Below the pieces are notes generated by a model. The model did not search any database, had not been told where the DNA came from, and saw nothing but the letters and a program-made list of their open reading frames with translations. A stretch of DNA of 20,099 bases from a virus, in IMG/VR virus record IMGVR_UViG_3300047094_000028, positions 1-20,099 of that record. One strand, written 5' to 3'. Positions within the stretch are counted from its first letter, which is position 1. Every line of letters starts with the position of its first letter. Below, one piece after another: positions 1-3,694 of the stretch. The translations under genes and the position numbers were made by a program.

Positions 1-659
1 TGTTCGTTTGCTATCTCTTTAGGTTTAGATACGATTAACATATTATTAATTAATGTTTCATCTATTTTTAATAGTAAAGGATTTAATGGTTTAGATTGTG
101 ATGTAGTTACCACTGTTGCTTGAAAGGCTTGATTTAATATAACTTGACCAACATCTGATTCTACAGAAATTTCTCCTACAAAACAATAACCATTTTTATC
201 ACAAGATGGTAATAAAATAATTGTTGAACCACCAATCTCATCTATAGTCATTGAAAAATCTGTTCCTCTTACACCAATGGTTGCCGTTGGTGTTTCTATC
301 TTAACATTTTGTTGACTATTTTTTGCTATCTGACCTGATGCATAACGAACAGTACCTGCTGTTGCTTTGATAGATAGTTTGCCTGTTTTATTACTTGCGT
401 CAAAAACAAATTCATCTATTAATAATTTAGAGTGTGCTGTAACATCAACTCGTGTGTCATCTACAAACTGTATGGCAGTTTTACCTTGGCCGGTTTTAAC
501 AGTATCATAAGATAAAATTTCTAATTGTTTTTTAGAATCAACTTCGCCGCCGGCCTTTCTTTGTACTTTAGTATTTCCTTCTTGTAGTATAACTTCACCT
601 ATTCCAGCGTAAACACTTTTGCTGAATAGAAACATAATTAAACATAATATTATTTTCAT
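1..659 (-). CDS. FecR-domain secreted protein (partial, C-terminus off window)
   Basis: The frame starts with ATG at 659 and stays open to base 1, so 219 residues are visible and the C-terminus lies outside the window. Residues 1-18 form a clear signal peptide (MKIILCLIMF..., likely cleaved after VYA). The core of the protein is a FecR-type beta domain; the diagnostic stretch is TPTATIGVRGTDF at residues 123-135, preceded by repeated short beta strands. FecR domains occur in the FecR anti-sigma regulator and also in many secreted proteins of Gram-negative bacteria. With a signal peptide and no transmembrane helix in the visible part, the exported type fits better than the regulator. It is the last visible gene of the csgF-csgG-curlin operon, 9 nt after the curlin stop codon, so it is probably co-exported or works at the cell surface with the curli-like products. 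The domain call is solid; the role is unknown. Confidence 0.85.
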   Translation of the reverse strand, partial: MKIILCLIMFLFSKSVYAGIGEVILQEGNTKVQRKAGGEVDSKKQLEILSYDTVKTGQGKTAIQFVDDTRVDVTAHSKLLIDEFVFDASNKTGKLSIKATAGTVRYASGQIAKNSQQNVKIETPTATIGVRGTDFSMTIDEIGGSTIILLPSCDKNGYCFVGEISVESDVGQVILNQAFQATVVTTSQSKPLNPLLLKIDETLINNMLIVSKPKEIANE

Positions 660-660
660 A

Positions 661-676
661 AAGATTTATTAATCTT
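661..676 (-). repeat. small inverted repeat over the curlin stop codon
   Basis: A perfect 6-bp inverted repeat with a 4-nt loop (AAGATT-AATA-AATCTT on the minus strand) spans the stop codon of the curlin-like gene and ends just before the FecR-gene start. It could fold in the mRNA and affect translation of the FecR gene, which lacks a strong Shine-Dalgarno. Short AT-rich repeats like this also arise by chance. Confidence 0.3.
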
Positions 677-1343
677 CTTGTACGATTGTAACTGATGGAT
701 TATTACCTGAAGTCGTTAAACTAATTGTTTTGTTTTCAAGACCTTCTTGTGTAATATTAAAAGTTCCACCTGTACCAGTATGACTAAGTGTTAATTTATG
801 TTCACCTACTCCTGAGCCTTCCATAGTATTTGTAATTGTATTTGTTGAGCCAGTTATAGTTAAAGTTTGTTCAGCATTTGGACTATCAATCGTAGATGTA
901 ATAGTGTTACTATCACCAGTTACGTTTTTAATAACAGTTGTTCCAGTAGAATCATCATTCTCACCAATGCTTAAACTTACAGTGTTTGAATTGCCAGATA
1001 AATTTATTGTTGCTGTTACTGTATCACAACCTGATGATGAGTTACCACTGTCACATAAAAATGTTACAGTATTACTATTACCACTAGCATCAAAACTACC
1101 TGTATAATTATTACCATTTACTTCAAAAGTTAACTCGTTTGTATTACCATTTTGAACAATTGTAAAATCAGTTCCGGCACCTGTTAATGAAGATGGTAAA
1201 TTTAATGTACCAATCGTGTTACCTGTGCCTGACTGTGTTATATCTAATACTAAATTGTTACCTGATTGAGTAACATATATATCGTTAGCCCATACTGGAC
1301 TTGACAACATCAGAAACATAATGAGTTTAGTTGATGTTTTCAT
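669..1343 (-). CDS. curlin-like (CsgA/CsgB-type) repeat protein
   Basis: A 224-aa secreted protein. Residues 1-19 are a signal peptide (likely cleavage VWA|ND). The rest is almost entirely Asn, Ser, Thr, Gly and hydrophobic residues in short beta strands. Curlin-type units with Q-x-G-x-x-N spacing are visible at both ends (VTQSGNN, ITQSGTGN, IVQNGNTN, ITQEG). The middle carries degenerate units of the form G-[ND]-S-N-T-[VI] (ASGNSNTV, LSGNSNTV, VTGDSNTI, TGSTNTI). Curlins are amyloid fibre subunits exported through the CsgG pore. The gene overlaps the 3' end of csgG by 17 nt, and the pairing strongly supports a curli-type substrate. It differs from enterobacterial CsgA: the repeats are irregular, and a Cys pair (C97, C106) interrupts the repeat array. 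It could be a fibre subunit, a nucleator (CsgB-like) or a pore-bound surface protein. Confidence 0.8.
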   Translation of the reverse strand: MKTSTKLIMFLMLSSPVWANDIYVTQSGNNLVLDITQSGTGNTIGTLNLPSSLTGAGTDFTIVQNGNTNELTFEVNGNNYTGSFDASGNSNTVTFLCDSGNSSSGCDTVTATINLSGNSNTVSLSIGENDDSTGTTVIKNVTGDSNTITSTIDSPNAEQTLTITGSTNTITNTMEGSGVGEHKLTLSHTGTGGTFNITQEGLENKTISLTTSGNNPSVTIVQED

Positions 1344-2169
1344 CTATTTTTTCTTTGCTTTCTTCTTTGTTAATTTTTTTTGTTTTCCATAGACCTTTTC
1401 TTTCGCCTTCTTTAATCATTTCTAACACACCAAATTCTATGGCCGTTCTAGTTGCATAATTTACTGGTTCATTTACAGCGGCACCTTGTTCTATTTCCAA
1501 TGCCTTTGTACCCATATCTAAAAACTTAAACACATCTACACCTGACTTATAACTAGCAATAGTCTTAGATGATGATAAAGATATTAAAATTTCTCCTGTT
1601 TGTACTGAAATCAATCGTATAGATATTGTTACTTGATCCATACGATATTCTTCGTGTACTCCTATACCAAAATATCTAGCTCCTTCTCCACCTGATGAAA
1701 AGTTAGTGTCATAACCTACTACACCACCTTCAATAATTAATCCAGCAAATACAATAGGTTTTAATATGTTCATATTATTTTTTTCACCATCATATTGTTC
1801 TCTTGTATTTTTAATCAATTGTCTTTCTTTCACAAGGTTATCTAAACCCGCTCTTTCAACAACCTTAAACCATTTACCATCACTTACATTTTTCAATGCT
1901 TGTATTAACCAAACTTCTGAACCTTGAGTAACTGCTGTACTTAAATTAGAAAAGTTAGCATTAGGTTTTCTTTGGCCTGTTCTATCAGGAAAACTGTACA
2001 CAGCAATTGTCATAATAGGTTGATCTAGTAAAGGATATTCTAATAACATTTTAGTAGTAGGTGTTCCTTCTACATATGGTAAATCGCCATAGTAAGGTTG
2101 ATTCCTATAAAATGTAGCACAAGATTGTAACATCAGTGCCATAGATATTATACTAATAATTTTTAACAT
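1327..2169 (-). CDS. csgG: CsgG, curli outer-membrane secretion lipoprotein
   Basis: A 280-aa homologue of CsgG, the nonameric outer-membrane pore of type VIII (curli) secretion. A lipoprotein signal ends in the lipobox LQSC, with C17 as the lipidated residue. Motifs shared with Escherichia coli CsgG run collinearly: DRTGQ-KP (about 62-69), STAV (77-80), WF-x-ERAGL (about 100-109), E-x(3)-GYD (about 147-154), SGGEGARYFGIG (159-170), the T-GEIL-S-x(2)-SKTI-SY strand region, and NEP followed by AIE-GV near the C-terminus. The length is close to the bacterial protein. The start has a good Shine-Dalgarno (AGGAA) just before ATG. It lies 10 nt after csgF and overlaps the curlin-like gene, so pore, accessory factor and substrate form one unit. 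The loop that lines the pore constriction differs from E. coli (see findings). Family assignment is very secure; use by a phage is unusual. Confidence 0.96.
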   Translation of the reverse strand: MLKIISIISMALMLQSCATFYRNQPYYGDLPYVEGTPTTKMLLEYPLLDQPIMTIAVYSFPDRTGQRKPNANFSNLSTAVTQGSEVWLIQALKNVSDGKWFKVVERAGLDNLVKERQLIKNTREQYDGEKNNMNILKPIVFAGLIIEGGVVGYDTNFSSGGEGARYFGIGVHEEYRMDQVTISIRLISVQTGEILISLSSSKTIASYKSGVDVFKFLDMGTKALEIEQGAAVNEPVNYATRTAIEFGVLEMIKEGERKGLWKTKKINKEESKEKIDENIN

Positions 2170-2179
2170 TTATTCCTAA

Positions 2180-2650
2180 TTAAAAAGCAAAACTTCCAAT
2201 AGGTACAGTTAAATTAGTTGTTGTGCCGTCAGCGCCTGTAACCGTAATAGAAATTGTATTTGCTGCTGTATCTTTAATCCAATATAATGTAGAACCTTCT
2301 ACTGTAGCTGTACCAGAATTAGCGGCACCTGCTTCAGTACTAAACATATTATCAACTAACTGTTTAGATAAATTGGCATATATTCTACTCTCAACGTTAG
2401 TAAGAAATTTATTAATTGTTTTATTGGCTTCTTCTCTTTTAGCGGCCGCTTCATCAGCTGCTTTTTTTTCTCTATTTTCTTTTTCTCTATTGTGTTGTAA
2501 TTGTTCAATAGACAATACGTGACTACTGTAACCTTGACCACTAAAGGCAGGGTTTTTAAAGTTGTGATTTAGTTCAGAAGAAATGCTAATAGTTATCAAA
2601 TAACCATAACTAAAAGTGGCTACTAGCACTAATTTTAATAGTGCTTTCAT
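2180..2650 (-). CDS. csgF: CsgF-like curli assembly factor
   Basis: A 156-aa exported protein. A hydrophobic signal segment covers about residues 5-24. Then comes the hallmark N-terminal segment of CsgF, F-K-N-P-A-F-S-G at 31-38, matching the FRNPNFGG segment of E. coli CsgF that inserts into the CsgG channel. The C-terminal part (about 118-150) is a beta-rich region aligning with the CsgF C-terminus (ITVTGADGTTTNLTV). Between them is a strongly charged, helical Lys/Glu/Ala linker (about 52-80) that is longer and more coiled-coil-like than I would expect in the bacterial protein. CsgF couples the pore to fibre nucleation at the cell surface. It is the first gene of the curli module, preceded by an exact late promoter box, with csgG 10 nt downstream. 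No csgE, csgB or csgC homologue is visible nearby. Confidence 0.88.
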   Translation of the reverse strand: MKALLKLVLVATFSYGYLITISISSELNHNFKNPAFSGQGYSSHVLSIEQLQHNREKENREKKAADEAAAKREEANKTINKFLTNVESRIYANLSKQLVDNMFSTEAGAANSGTATVEGSTLYWIKDTAANTISITVTGADGTTTNLTVPIGSFAF

Positions 2651-2677: not shown

Positions 2678-2932
2678 TTATTTGTCTTTTTTATTCTTTT
2701 CTTGCTCTTCTTGGTACTCTAGTATAAGATTTAACTTTGTGTTTAATCTGATAAGGTCATTATCTAGCATTCTTATTCTGTCAACTAATGCTATGAGTGT
2801 CTTACTGGTCTCACTTGTCACAGGTTTAATTTCTATAGTTACCCATTTCCAAACAAAGTATATAAAATATCCCATACCAAATGCAGCAACAATTGGAAAG
2901 CCATACTGATTAATCATCTTTACTAAATCCAT
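2678..2932 (-). CDS. small single-TM protein with coiled-coil tail (paralogue A)
   Basis: An 84-aa protein with one transmembrane segment (about residues 11-31) followed by a charged heptad-like tail rich in Leu, Ile, Lys and Glu. I place the start at the internal ATG at 2932 rather than the TTG at 2974. The ATG has a Shine-Dalgarno (AAGGA) and directly follows the upstream stop codon (TAATATG), and the resulting N-terminus MDLVK...GFPI matches the N-terminus of its upstream neighbour, MDFLK...GFPI. The two proteins also share the pattern I-x-x-LD-x-R...D-x-IR-x-x-T...L in their tails, so they are tandem paralogues. The topology (short N-terminus, one TM, cytoplasmic coiled coil) resembles small holin-like or BhlA/UviB-type proteins. 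The position behind a holin supports an accessory lysis or membrane role, but the function is not established. Confidence 0.75.
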   Translation of the reverse strand: MDLVKMINQYGFPIVAAFGMGYFIYFVWKWVTIEIKPVTSETSKTLIALVDRIRMLDNDLIRLNTKLNLILEYQEEQEKNKKDK

Positions 2933-2933
2933 A

Positions 2934-3212
2934 TTAATCCTTTCTTGCGTCCTCTTTACCGTTTGCACGGCCAATTCTATCTACGTCTGGTTTAATTCTT
3001 AATGTCGCACTTACTAATGTATCAATTCGTATTACATCAGCATTCATAGTTTTAACTCTATTATCTAATGCTTCAATTATACCACTTAGTTTTTTTACAT
3101 CACCTGTAACTGATGCTAGAATAAATTTTAATGTGAGAAATACAAAGAAGCCACCAGCACAAGCGGCCGCTATTGGAAACCCTACTTCTAATGCTAGTTT
3201 AAGAAAGTCCAT
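2934..3212 (-). CDS. small single-TM protein with coiled-coil tail (paralogue B)
   Basis: A 92-aa protein with the same plan as the next gene: MDFLK, then a transmembrane helix rich in Ala, Gly and Phe (about 10-33), then a helical tail with the shared pattern I-x-x-LD-x-R...D-x-IR-x-x-T...L, and a basic/acidic C-terminus. It starts 14 nt after the holin stop codon and ends 1 nt before the start of its paralogue (TAATATG), so the three genes are translationally linked. Small TM-plus-coiled-coil proteins beside holins often act as holin partners or antiholins in phages. That is context only here, and I cannot assign a named family with confidence. Confidence 0.75.
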   Translation of the reverse strand: MDFLKLALEVGFPIAAACAGGFFVFLTLKFILASVTGDVKKLSGIIEALDNRVKTMNADVIRIDTLVSATLRIKPDVDRIGRANGKEDARKD

Positions 3213-3226
3213 AATAAATTAGTTCT

Positions 3227-3694
3227 TTACTTTTTTGAAAATGCTCTATTACCAAACCAGAAAGCAACAACGGCAGAAAATAATCCTGCAGTTTCATCGT
3301 CCCATAGTTTTGGTATTGATTCTACAAAACCTACTCCTGATCTCATATATGCAACTAAAGCACAAACTTTAATTGTAACAAATAAGATAAAAAATATATA
3401 TGTAACAACAGGTCGAACAGATGATCTCATAGCATCAATAAACGCACCGCCCTTTAATGAGGCATCGTGAGCGTATAGTCCAGCTACTTCAGCAGCTTTA
3501 GCTTTTGCTTCTTCTACTTCGACCTGTGCTTGTACTTGTTTAATGTTAAGTTCTATACCTCTAGCTTGAAGTTCTGCTCTTAGTTTTAATTCTTCTAAGT
3601 CAGCCGCTCTTTTAGATTTCTCTTTAAAAAAATCAAAGATCGATGGTATAATTGATGTACCAAATCCTAATAATGTACCTAATAAACTTAACAT
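3227..3694 (-). CDS. GTA-type 3-TM holin family protein
   Basis: A 155-aa membrane protein. It has an amphipathic or TM N-terminus (about 1-23), a long charged Ala/Glu/Lys helix (about 24-75), a strong TM helix following SSVRP (about 94-117), and a C-terminal TM helix (about 135-150) with the motif WDDETAGL...AFWFGNRAFSK. The R-P-V start of the second helix and the C-terminal FWFG-x-R motif are typical of the 3-TM holins described from gene transfer agents (GTA_holin_3TM family) and found in many marine phages. Holins form lesions in the inner membrane and time lysis. The start has a strong Shine-Dalgarno (AAGGAG). It is the first of three membrane-protein genes that lead straight into the curli module. 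No endolysin or recognisable spanin pair lies in the window. Confidence 0.8.
   Translation of the reverse strand: MLSLLGTLLGFGTSIIPSIFDFFKEKSKRAADLEELKLRAELQARGIELNIKQVQAQVEVEEAKAKAAEVAGLYAHDASLKGGAFIDAMRSSVRPVVTYIFFILFVTIKVCALVAYMRSGVGFVESIPKLWDDETAGLFSAVVAFWFGNRAFSKK

Follow-up and report, generated by a model that had tools for sequence, protein, structure and literature searches.

We found a curli (type VIII secretion) gene module of the kind carried by pelagiphages at the left end of a marine phage contig. We consider it probable, at roughly 0.7, that the module serves to build a surface fibre or coat through a CsgG-CsgF pore, with a FecR-domain protein as its partner and a cyclase as its reporter. 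The window, which is the whole viral contig that was analysed, is 20,099 bases long and has its main genes on the minus strand. Its replicative helicase is closest to those of Methylophilales phage Melnitz (66%) and Pelagibacter phage HTVC008M (64%), placing the contig in the neighbourhood of T4-like pelagimyophages and methylophages. Judged by such sequence relationships, the contig is a marine T4-like phage, kin to known SAR11 and OM43 viruses, with HTVC008M and Melnitz as its nearest isolates.

The module itself is already published, in GenBank records and in papers from 2020 to 2022. The HTVC008M record (KC465899) names CsgF, CsgG and a "curlin minor subunit CsgB", which bears out the suspicion in an earlier note on this DNA that the pore genes might not be new. 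Zaragoza-Solas et al. (2020), who described this cluster in pelagimyophages, put forward sibling capture (PMC7029224). In pelagiphages, Wittmers et al. (2022) reported modules of the composition CsgF-CsgG-CsgA/B-FecR-cyclase and their expression in metatranscriptomes, and suggested superinfection defence or capture as their role (PMC9599517). The linkage of a curlin-like substrate and FecR to the pore genes, which the earlier note had singled out as the part worth checking, is therefore not new either, since it is present both in GenBank (HTVC008M, Melnitz) and in Wittmers et al. What we did not find published is the reading of FecR as a partner of the fibre or pore, the near-constant company of a pair of small transmembrane (TM) proteins, and the occurrence of the operon in bacteria.

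Gene layout and the predicted CsgG-CsgF pore

In order of transcription, the left end of the window encodes two small membrane proteins, CsgF, CsgG, a curlin-like protein and a FecR-domain protein truncated where the contig stops. The last four had been described as one minus-strand unit, and all four are in place: csgF at 2180–2650 (156 aa), csgG at 1327–2169 (280 aa), the gene for the curlin-like substrate (CsgA/B type) at 669–1343 (224 aa), and fecR at 3–659, whose frame is open at the contig end and yields the N-terminal 219 residues of about 366. The start of the curlin gene overlaps csgG by 17 nt. The window thus has the order CsgF, CsgG, CsgA/B, FecR of the pelagiphage T8SS module. The unit is larger than four genes. 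Upstream, two paralogous genes at 2678–3212, also on the minus strand, encode proteins with one TM segment and a coiled coil that belong to phrog_18771: "a" at 2678–2974, with a likely start at the ATG at 2932 (84 aa), and "b" at 2934–3212. In relatives, the unit continues downstream with a second curlin gene and an adenylate cyclase gene of the CHASE2 type, positions that fall past the contig end of the window. Two contigs whose CsgG is 97% identical to that of the window (L002 and L003) carry the remaining part of FecR, the second curlin and the CHASE2 cyclase.

The homology of the two pore proteins is clear, as had been noted from the sequence: both exceed their Pfam cut-offs (E 4e-53 for CsgG and 1e-12 for CsgF). 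A profile match to the solved E. coli CsgG extends across its length (E 5e-98), and the window CsgG is 63% identical to that of HTVC008M and 51% identical to that of Melnitz. It has an LQSC lipobox, of which Cys17 is invariant in an alignment of relatives. The Pfam match of CsgF spans residues 9–150, and its N-terminal segment, of the type F-x-N-P-x-F-x-G, is strongly conserved in the alignment; its match to E. coli CsgF in CsgG-CsgF structures is weak (E 0.09) and confined to the N-terminus. We propose that CsgG-CsgF would form the outer-membrane exit for the curlin-like proteins. The constriction residues Y51 and F56 of E. coli CsgG are mostly replaced in phage CsgG; we considered the loss of these aromatics as a marker of the phage pore and dropped it, because other bacterial CsgG proteins vary much alike. 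The csgG of a record labelled as a Salmonella phage (OR851715) probably does not belong to a phage; the record is an unverified contig of 1.5 kb, and its CsgG is of the enterobacterial type.

CsgE was not found in HTVC008M, in Melnitz, or in three bacteria that carry the same operon. This fits the proposal of Zaragoza-Solas et al. (2020) and Wittmers et al. (2022) that CsgG, ungated by CsgE, stays open and admits bigger compounds, for example siderophores or cofactors. However, an uptake pore would leave CsgF, two curlins and FecR unexplained, and Alphaproteobacteria are generally without CsgE, as all those examined by Dueholm et al. (2012) were (PMC3521004). Moreover, a FecR protein without an anti-sigma part provides no tie to iron uptake. 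We regard an uptake function as the least likely of the explanations we weighed, with little chance of being correct. The same observations qualify the description of the phage system as reduced: the lack of CsgE in two phages agrees with it, but Alphaproteobacteria lack CsgE too, and relatives of the window have a cyclase and a further curlin as well.

Conservation of the module and its small membrane proteins

We assembled a set of 49 viral loci seeded with CsgG, together with the isolates HTVC008M and Melnitz. Among the CsgG-seeded loci with sufficient flank, csgF lies upstream of csgG in 49 of 49, a curlin-like gene follows csgG in 46 of 46, and a FecR gene is present in 44 of 44; the cyclase was identified in 28 of 32 testable loci (the four loci without it are on similar contigs) and the small TM pair within 8 kb in 26 of 27, although some of these contigs are near-copies, so the counts are not all independent. 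The order csgF-csgG-curlin-FecR-(curlin2)-CHASE2 cyclase is kept almost without exception among related contigs. Hence, the expectation that pore, cognate curlin-like substrate and FecR form a conserved phage-borne unit is upheld by near-total synteny; relatives with csgG and csgF that never carry curlin-like or FecR genes, an outcome that would have spoken against it, were not what we observed. Pairwise dN/dS is about 0.05–0.25 for csgF, csgG, FecR, the cyclase and curlin2, with still lower values for the small membrane proteins; all of these genes are under purifying selection. The curlin of the window has too few differences for its dN/dS to be weighed.

The constancy of this gene set bears on the proposal that the pore sets the timing of lysis. 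Buchholz et al. (2022) reported that Melnitz-infected cultures did not clump and, from models and synteny, took Melnitz CsgG for a channel resembling a pinholin or secretin, and CsgF for a protein that has diverged to serve a different role (PMC9004378). Small proteins beside csgF do match a holin family, phrog_4898, weakly (8 of 24 proteins, best E 1e-4), and just upstream of them in the window, the product of 3227–3694 has a weak match to holins. However, CsgG is an outer-membrane protein of the lipoprotein type rather than an inner-membrane holin, CsgF keeps a strongly conserved N-terminal segment, and every testable locus has a curlin and FecR, neither of which a pore alone would need. Among the CsgG-seeded loci, the gene at 3227–3694 turned up in the window, L003 and L004 alone; we therefore dropped it as a member of the module. 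A role in lysis timing is thus unlikely, though we give it slightly more weight than the other alternatives, and we favour export of a surface fibre or coat.

We also scanned viral sequences with the phrog_18771-type pair alone as the seed. Among the best 80 of 586 relatives, a biased sample, 74 contigs have csg-module genes in the fetched flank; in most of the other six, the contig breaks off near the pair. Within phages, the pair is positioned ahead of csgF or on the opposite strand past the cyclase, and in most cases its proteins are about 80–120 aa long. Wittmers et al. place a short "histidine kinase, sometimes two" before the module (PMC9599517). None of 24 small membrane proteins has a Pfam kinase match, HisKA and HATPase included, and none has a conserved His, with at most 6 of 24 sequences having His in any alignment column. 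Their resemblance to YvrJ is faint. We think that the published "histidine kinase", equated here by its position, is probably this pair: membrane proteins of roughly 95 aa that lack kinase features. In phages, the module rarely occurs without two such proteins.

Curlin-like substrate, FecR-domain protein and cyclase

The curlin-like protein of the window scores below threshold with the Pfam Curlin_rpt profile (E 0.028; 14.8 bits versus a cut-off of 20.7), so its assignment cannot rest on Pfam alone. The second curlin of the close relative L003 does pass (E 1.5e-7), and the window protein is 47% identical to the HTVC008M protein named as curlin in GenBank (E 3e-44). Q, G and N at the repeat positions are invariant in alignments of 22–64 relatives. 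An AlphaFold2 model built from the alignment of 64 relatives is all beta from residue 21 (pLDDT 88.8, pTM 0.83). Foldseek returned no match below E 0.001 for this model; the top VIA match is Pontibacter CsgA (8c50; Z 19.0 over 189 residues, 19% identity, rmsd 8.5), with SufB/D solenoids at Z 16–18 and E. coli CsgA at 12.6. A beta-solenoid fold is therefore well supported as a prediction, in line with the expectation that the product of 669–1343 would be one, and the identity of the protein as a curlin follows from the fold, the repeat pattern and the homology to annotated phage curlins taken jointly. The protein ends in -SVTIVQED and starts with what, by eye, is a Sec signal. We suggest that host Sec would export the curlins and FecR to the periplasm, and that the curlins would assemble outside the host cell as a curlin-type fibre or coat.

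The FecR-domain protein exceeds the Pfam FecR cut-off (E 8e-11) and matches phrog_37870 (E 2e-93). By eye, it has a signal peptide (MKIILCLIMFLFSKSVYA/GIGE), and the FecR domain starts at about residue 21; its C-terminal end is missing because the contig stops. The full-length protein of L003 (3228–4328; 366 aa) begins with a signal sequence and the FecR domain, continues through a helical middle section that is predicted poorly, and closes with beta structure at its C-terminus. Its model matches the periplasmic FecR/PupR signalling domain 6ovk (Z 15.0, 135 residues), and the first part of the FecR domain matches 5ix9, a "cell surface anchoring domain" of the antifreeze adhesin MpAFP (Foldseek 1.0 Å over 62 residues, 32% identity; Z 7.6). 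The 5ix9 domain belongs to a giant type I-secreted adhesin, and to our knowledge that adhesin has no curlin-like end. In the aligned proteins, the signal sequence runs straight into the FecR domain and the N-terminal cytoplasmic anti-sigma domain is absent. NCBIfam relatives of the protein are Leptospira surface proteins. The best of the other FecR matches in 385 alphaproteobacterial genomes cover the FecR domain only, and 29 that we fetched are mostly N-terminal parts of large proteins, several with visible repeat-like sequence.

The last strand of the phage FecR proteins reads, for example, GGSGNVIYIKQSS or GGQENAITINQTN. This C-terminal motif is present in 61 of 70 phage FecR proteins and 91 of 142 phage curlins, versus 19 of 1172 other ORFs on the same contigs, and its Gln is invariant in an alignment of 65 FecR sequences. 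The lack of an anti-sigma part, together with a curlin-like end strand that has an invariant Gln, suggests that FecR is probably a fibre- or pore-associated partner and not a regulator. The FecR domain would be held at the envelope, in the periplasm or close to the pore, with no anti-sigma role, and the C-terminal beta domain would dock onto or cap the fibre; we infer from these sequence features that FecR may contact or join it. The motif could also be simply a short beta strand. A bolder reading, which we hold tentatively and think rather less likely to be right than wrong, takes the phage system for a remodelled form of type VIII secretion with FecR as a substrate-like anchor: its folded FecR domain would be held at the envelope, its curlin-like C-terminal strand would join the fibre at the CsgG-CsgF pore, and the TM pair, which was found with the phage version but in none of the three bacterial operons, would add a phage-specific function.

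The cyclases of relatives have CHASE2 and cyclase domains. In an alignment of 70 distinct cyclases, both metal-binding Asp residues, the Lys and the Arg are invariant in all 70. The adenine Asp and the transition-state Asn are kept in 38; in the other 32, the Asp is replaced by Ser or Gly and the Asn by Ser, and these proteins may differ in activity. The cyclases of L002 and L003 have the full residue set, so that of the window's lineage is probably active. Wittmers et al. (2022) proposed that the curli genes are regulated by a circuit of FecR, the cyclase and the "histidine kinase". The domain content of the cyclases and their invariant metal-binding Asp, Lys and Arg are consistent with this idea, but it has to accommodate a FecR without the N-terminal anti-sigma region, small proteins with neither a kinase domain nor a conserved His, and altered adenine and transition-state positions in 32 of the 70 cyclases. 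We judge it improbable, and prefer a fibre or coat whose CHASE2 cyclase would report the state of the envelope or fibre through cAMP. The likeliest benefit of such a structure would be an altered surface of the infected cell, leading to aggregation or to exclusion of competing phages, as others have already proposed; the absence of clumping in Melnitz-infected cultures counts against this picture. The sequence speaks neither for nor against the roles that the earlier note suggested, namely display of a surface protein, exclusion of other phages, uptake and breach of the outer membrane.

Bacterial counterparts and comparison with known systems

Whereas a single CsgG query gave no relatives in bacterial-genome contigs, an alignment query did, and we took 80 such loci. 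Among these, csgF-csgG-curlin(-curlin)-FecR-cyclase operons occur in two Caulobacteraceae MAGs (L056 and L057) and in Hyphomonas sp. TMED17 (L059). By eye, the neighbouring genes are of bacterial type, indicating chromosomal contigs. Therefore, the published claim that the cyclase is absent from bacterial T8SS operons has exceptions. The operon is not widespread in bacteria as far as we searched: at E 1e-50, phage-type FecR was found in no genomes besides the seeds in two overlapping samples of 398 genomes of the seeds' order, and no other full-length phage-type FecR was among the matches listed from 385 genomes of the class. Six more contigs filed in bacterial MAGs resemble phage fragments.

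In the CsgG tree, the two bacterial types branch together with phage contig L201 (SH-aLRT 98), within the phage side. A phage-only CsgG clade is rejected (AU p 0.0098), for a group that was named after the tree was seen. Transfer from phage to these bacteria and two captures from one bacterial source would both fit this tree.

The commonest bacteria of the ocean have phages equipped with what may be machinery for rebuilding the host surface. The present reading turns FecR from a vague "regulator" into a candidate structural part that can be tested, the small membrane pair provides a marker of the phage version of the module, and the operons of Caulobacteraceae and Hyphomonas may open the system to study in bacteria.

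The module shares with E. coli csgBAC-csgDEFG the CsgG and CsgF homologues and a curlin predicted to be a beta-solenoid. It differs in that CsgC, CsgD and CsgE were not identified and in that the curlin repeats are more degenerate, and it adds FecR, the CHASE2 cyclase and the small membrane pair. The bacterial operons share gene order and the FecR and CHASE2 cyclase families with the phage module, but lie alongside bacterial-type genes, and the small membrane pair was not found in any of the three. The MpAFP adhesin shares the fold of its anchoring domain with the first part of the FecR domain. The closest counterpart is the pelagiphage T8SS module of HTVC008M and Melnitz (MZ577097), in which the small protein or proteins, CsgF, CsgG, curlin and FecR have the same order as in the window, and whose second curlin and adenylate cyclase are shared by relatives of the window. 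The window represents a different sequence member of this module, for which we interpret both the "histidine kinase" and FecR differently.

Patchwork within the curli module and its upstream neighbour

When the curli genes of the window (3-2169) were compared with those of its relatives L002 and L003, the FecR gene (3-659) was identical to that of L002 throughout its 657 nt, the curlin-like gene (669-1343) was nearly identical to that of L003, and csgG (1327-2169) differed from each by about 46-52 changes. This patchwork of identity suggests recombination inside the module. Directly upstream of the two small one-TM proteins adjoining csgF lies a gene for a 155-aa, weakly holin-family-like protein (3227-3694), which we found in the closest relatives only.

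Second curlins and cyclases

In the second curlin of Pelagibacter phage HTVC008M (L051:9585-10910), a PA14 domain (E 3e-6) precedes the curlin repeats, and it is possibly an adhesive tip; with Pfam, no PA14 domain was found in L003. In 32 of 70 module cyclases, including those of L015, L025 and L035, Ser or Gly takes the place of the Asp that specifies adenine, and Ser that of the transition-state Asn. These cyclases are a class of their own.

Curli genes in bacterial and phage records

Six module-carrying contigs (L054, L055, L058, L074, L087 and L123) look like phage fragments despite being filed in bacterial MAGs (labelled Pelagibacter, Pirellulales, Flavobacteriales, Planctomycetaceae, Sphingobacteriales and Rhodobacteraceae). 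Contigs of Caulobacteraceae (L056, L057) and Hyphomonas (L059) carry csgF-csgG-curlin-FecR-CHASE2 cyclase among bacterial-type neighbours; the phage clade encloses their CsgG. The record titled 'Salmonella phage S.Kent 1-2-1' (OR851715.1; 1,499 bases, unverified) is probably a host fragment, and its csgG resembles enterobacterial csgG.
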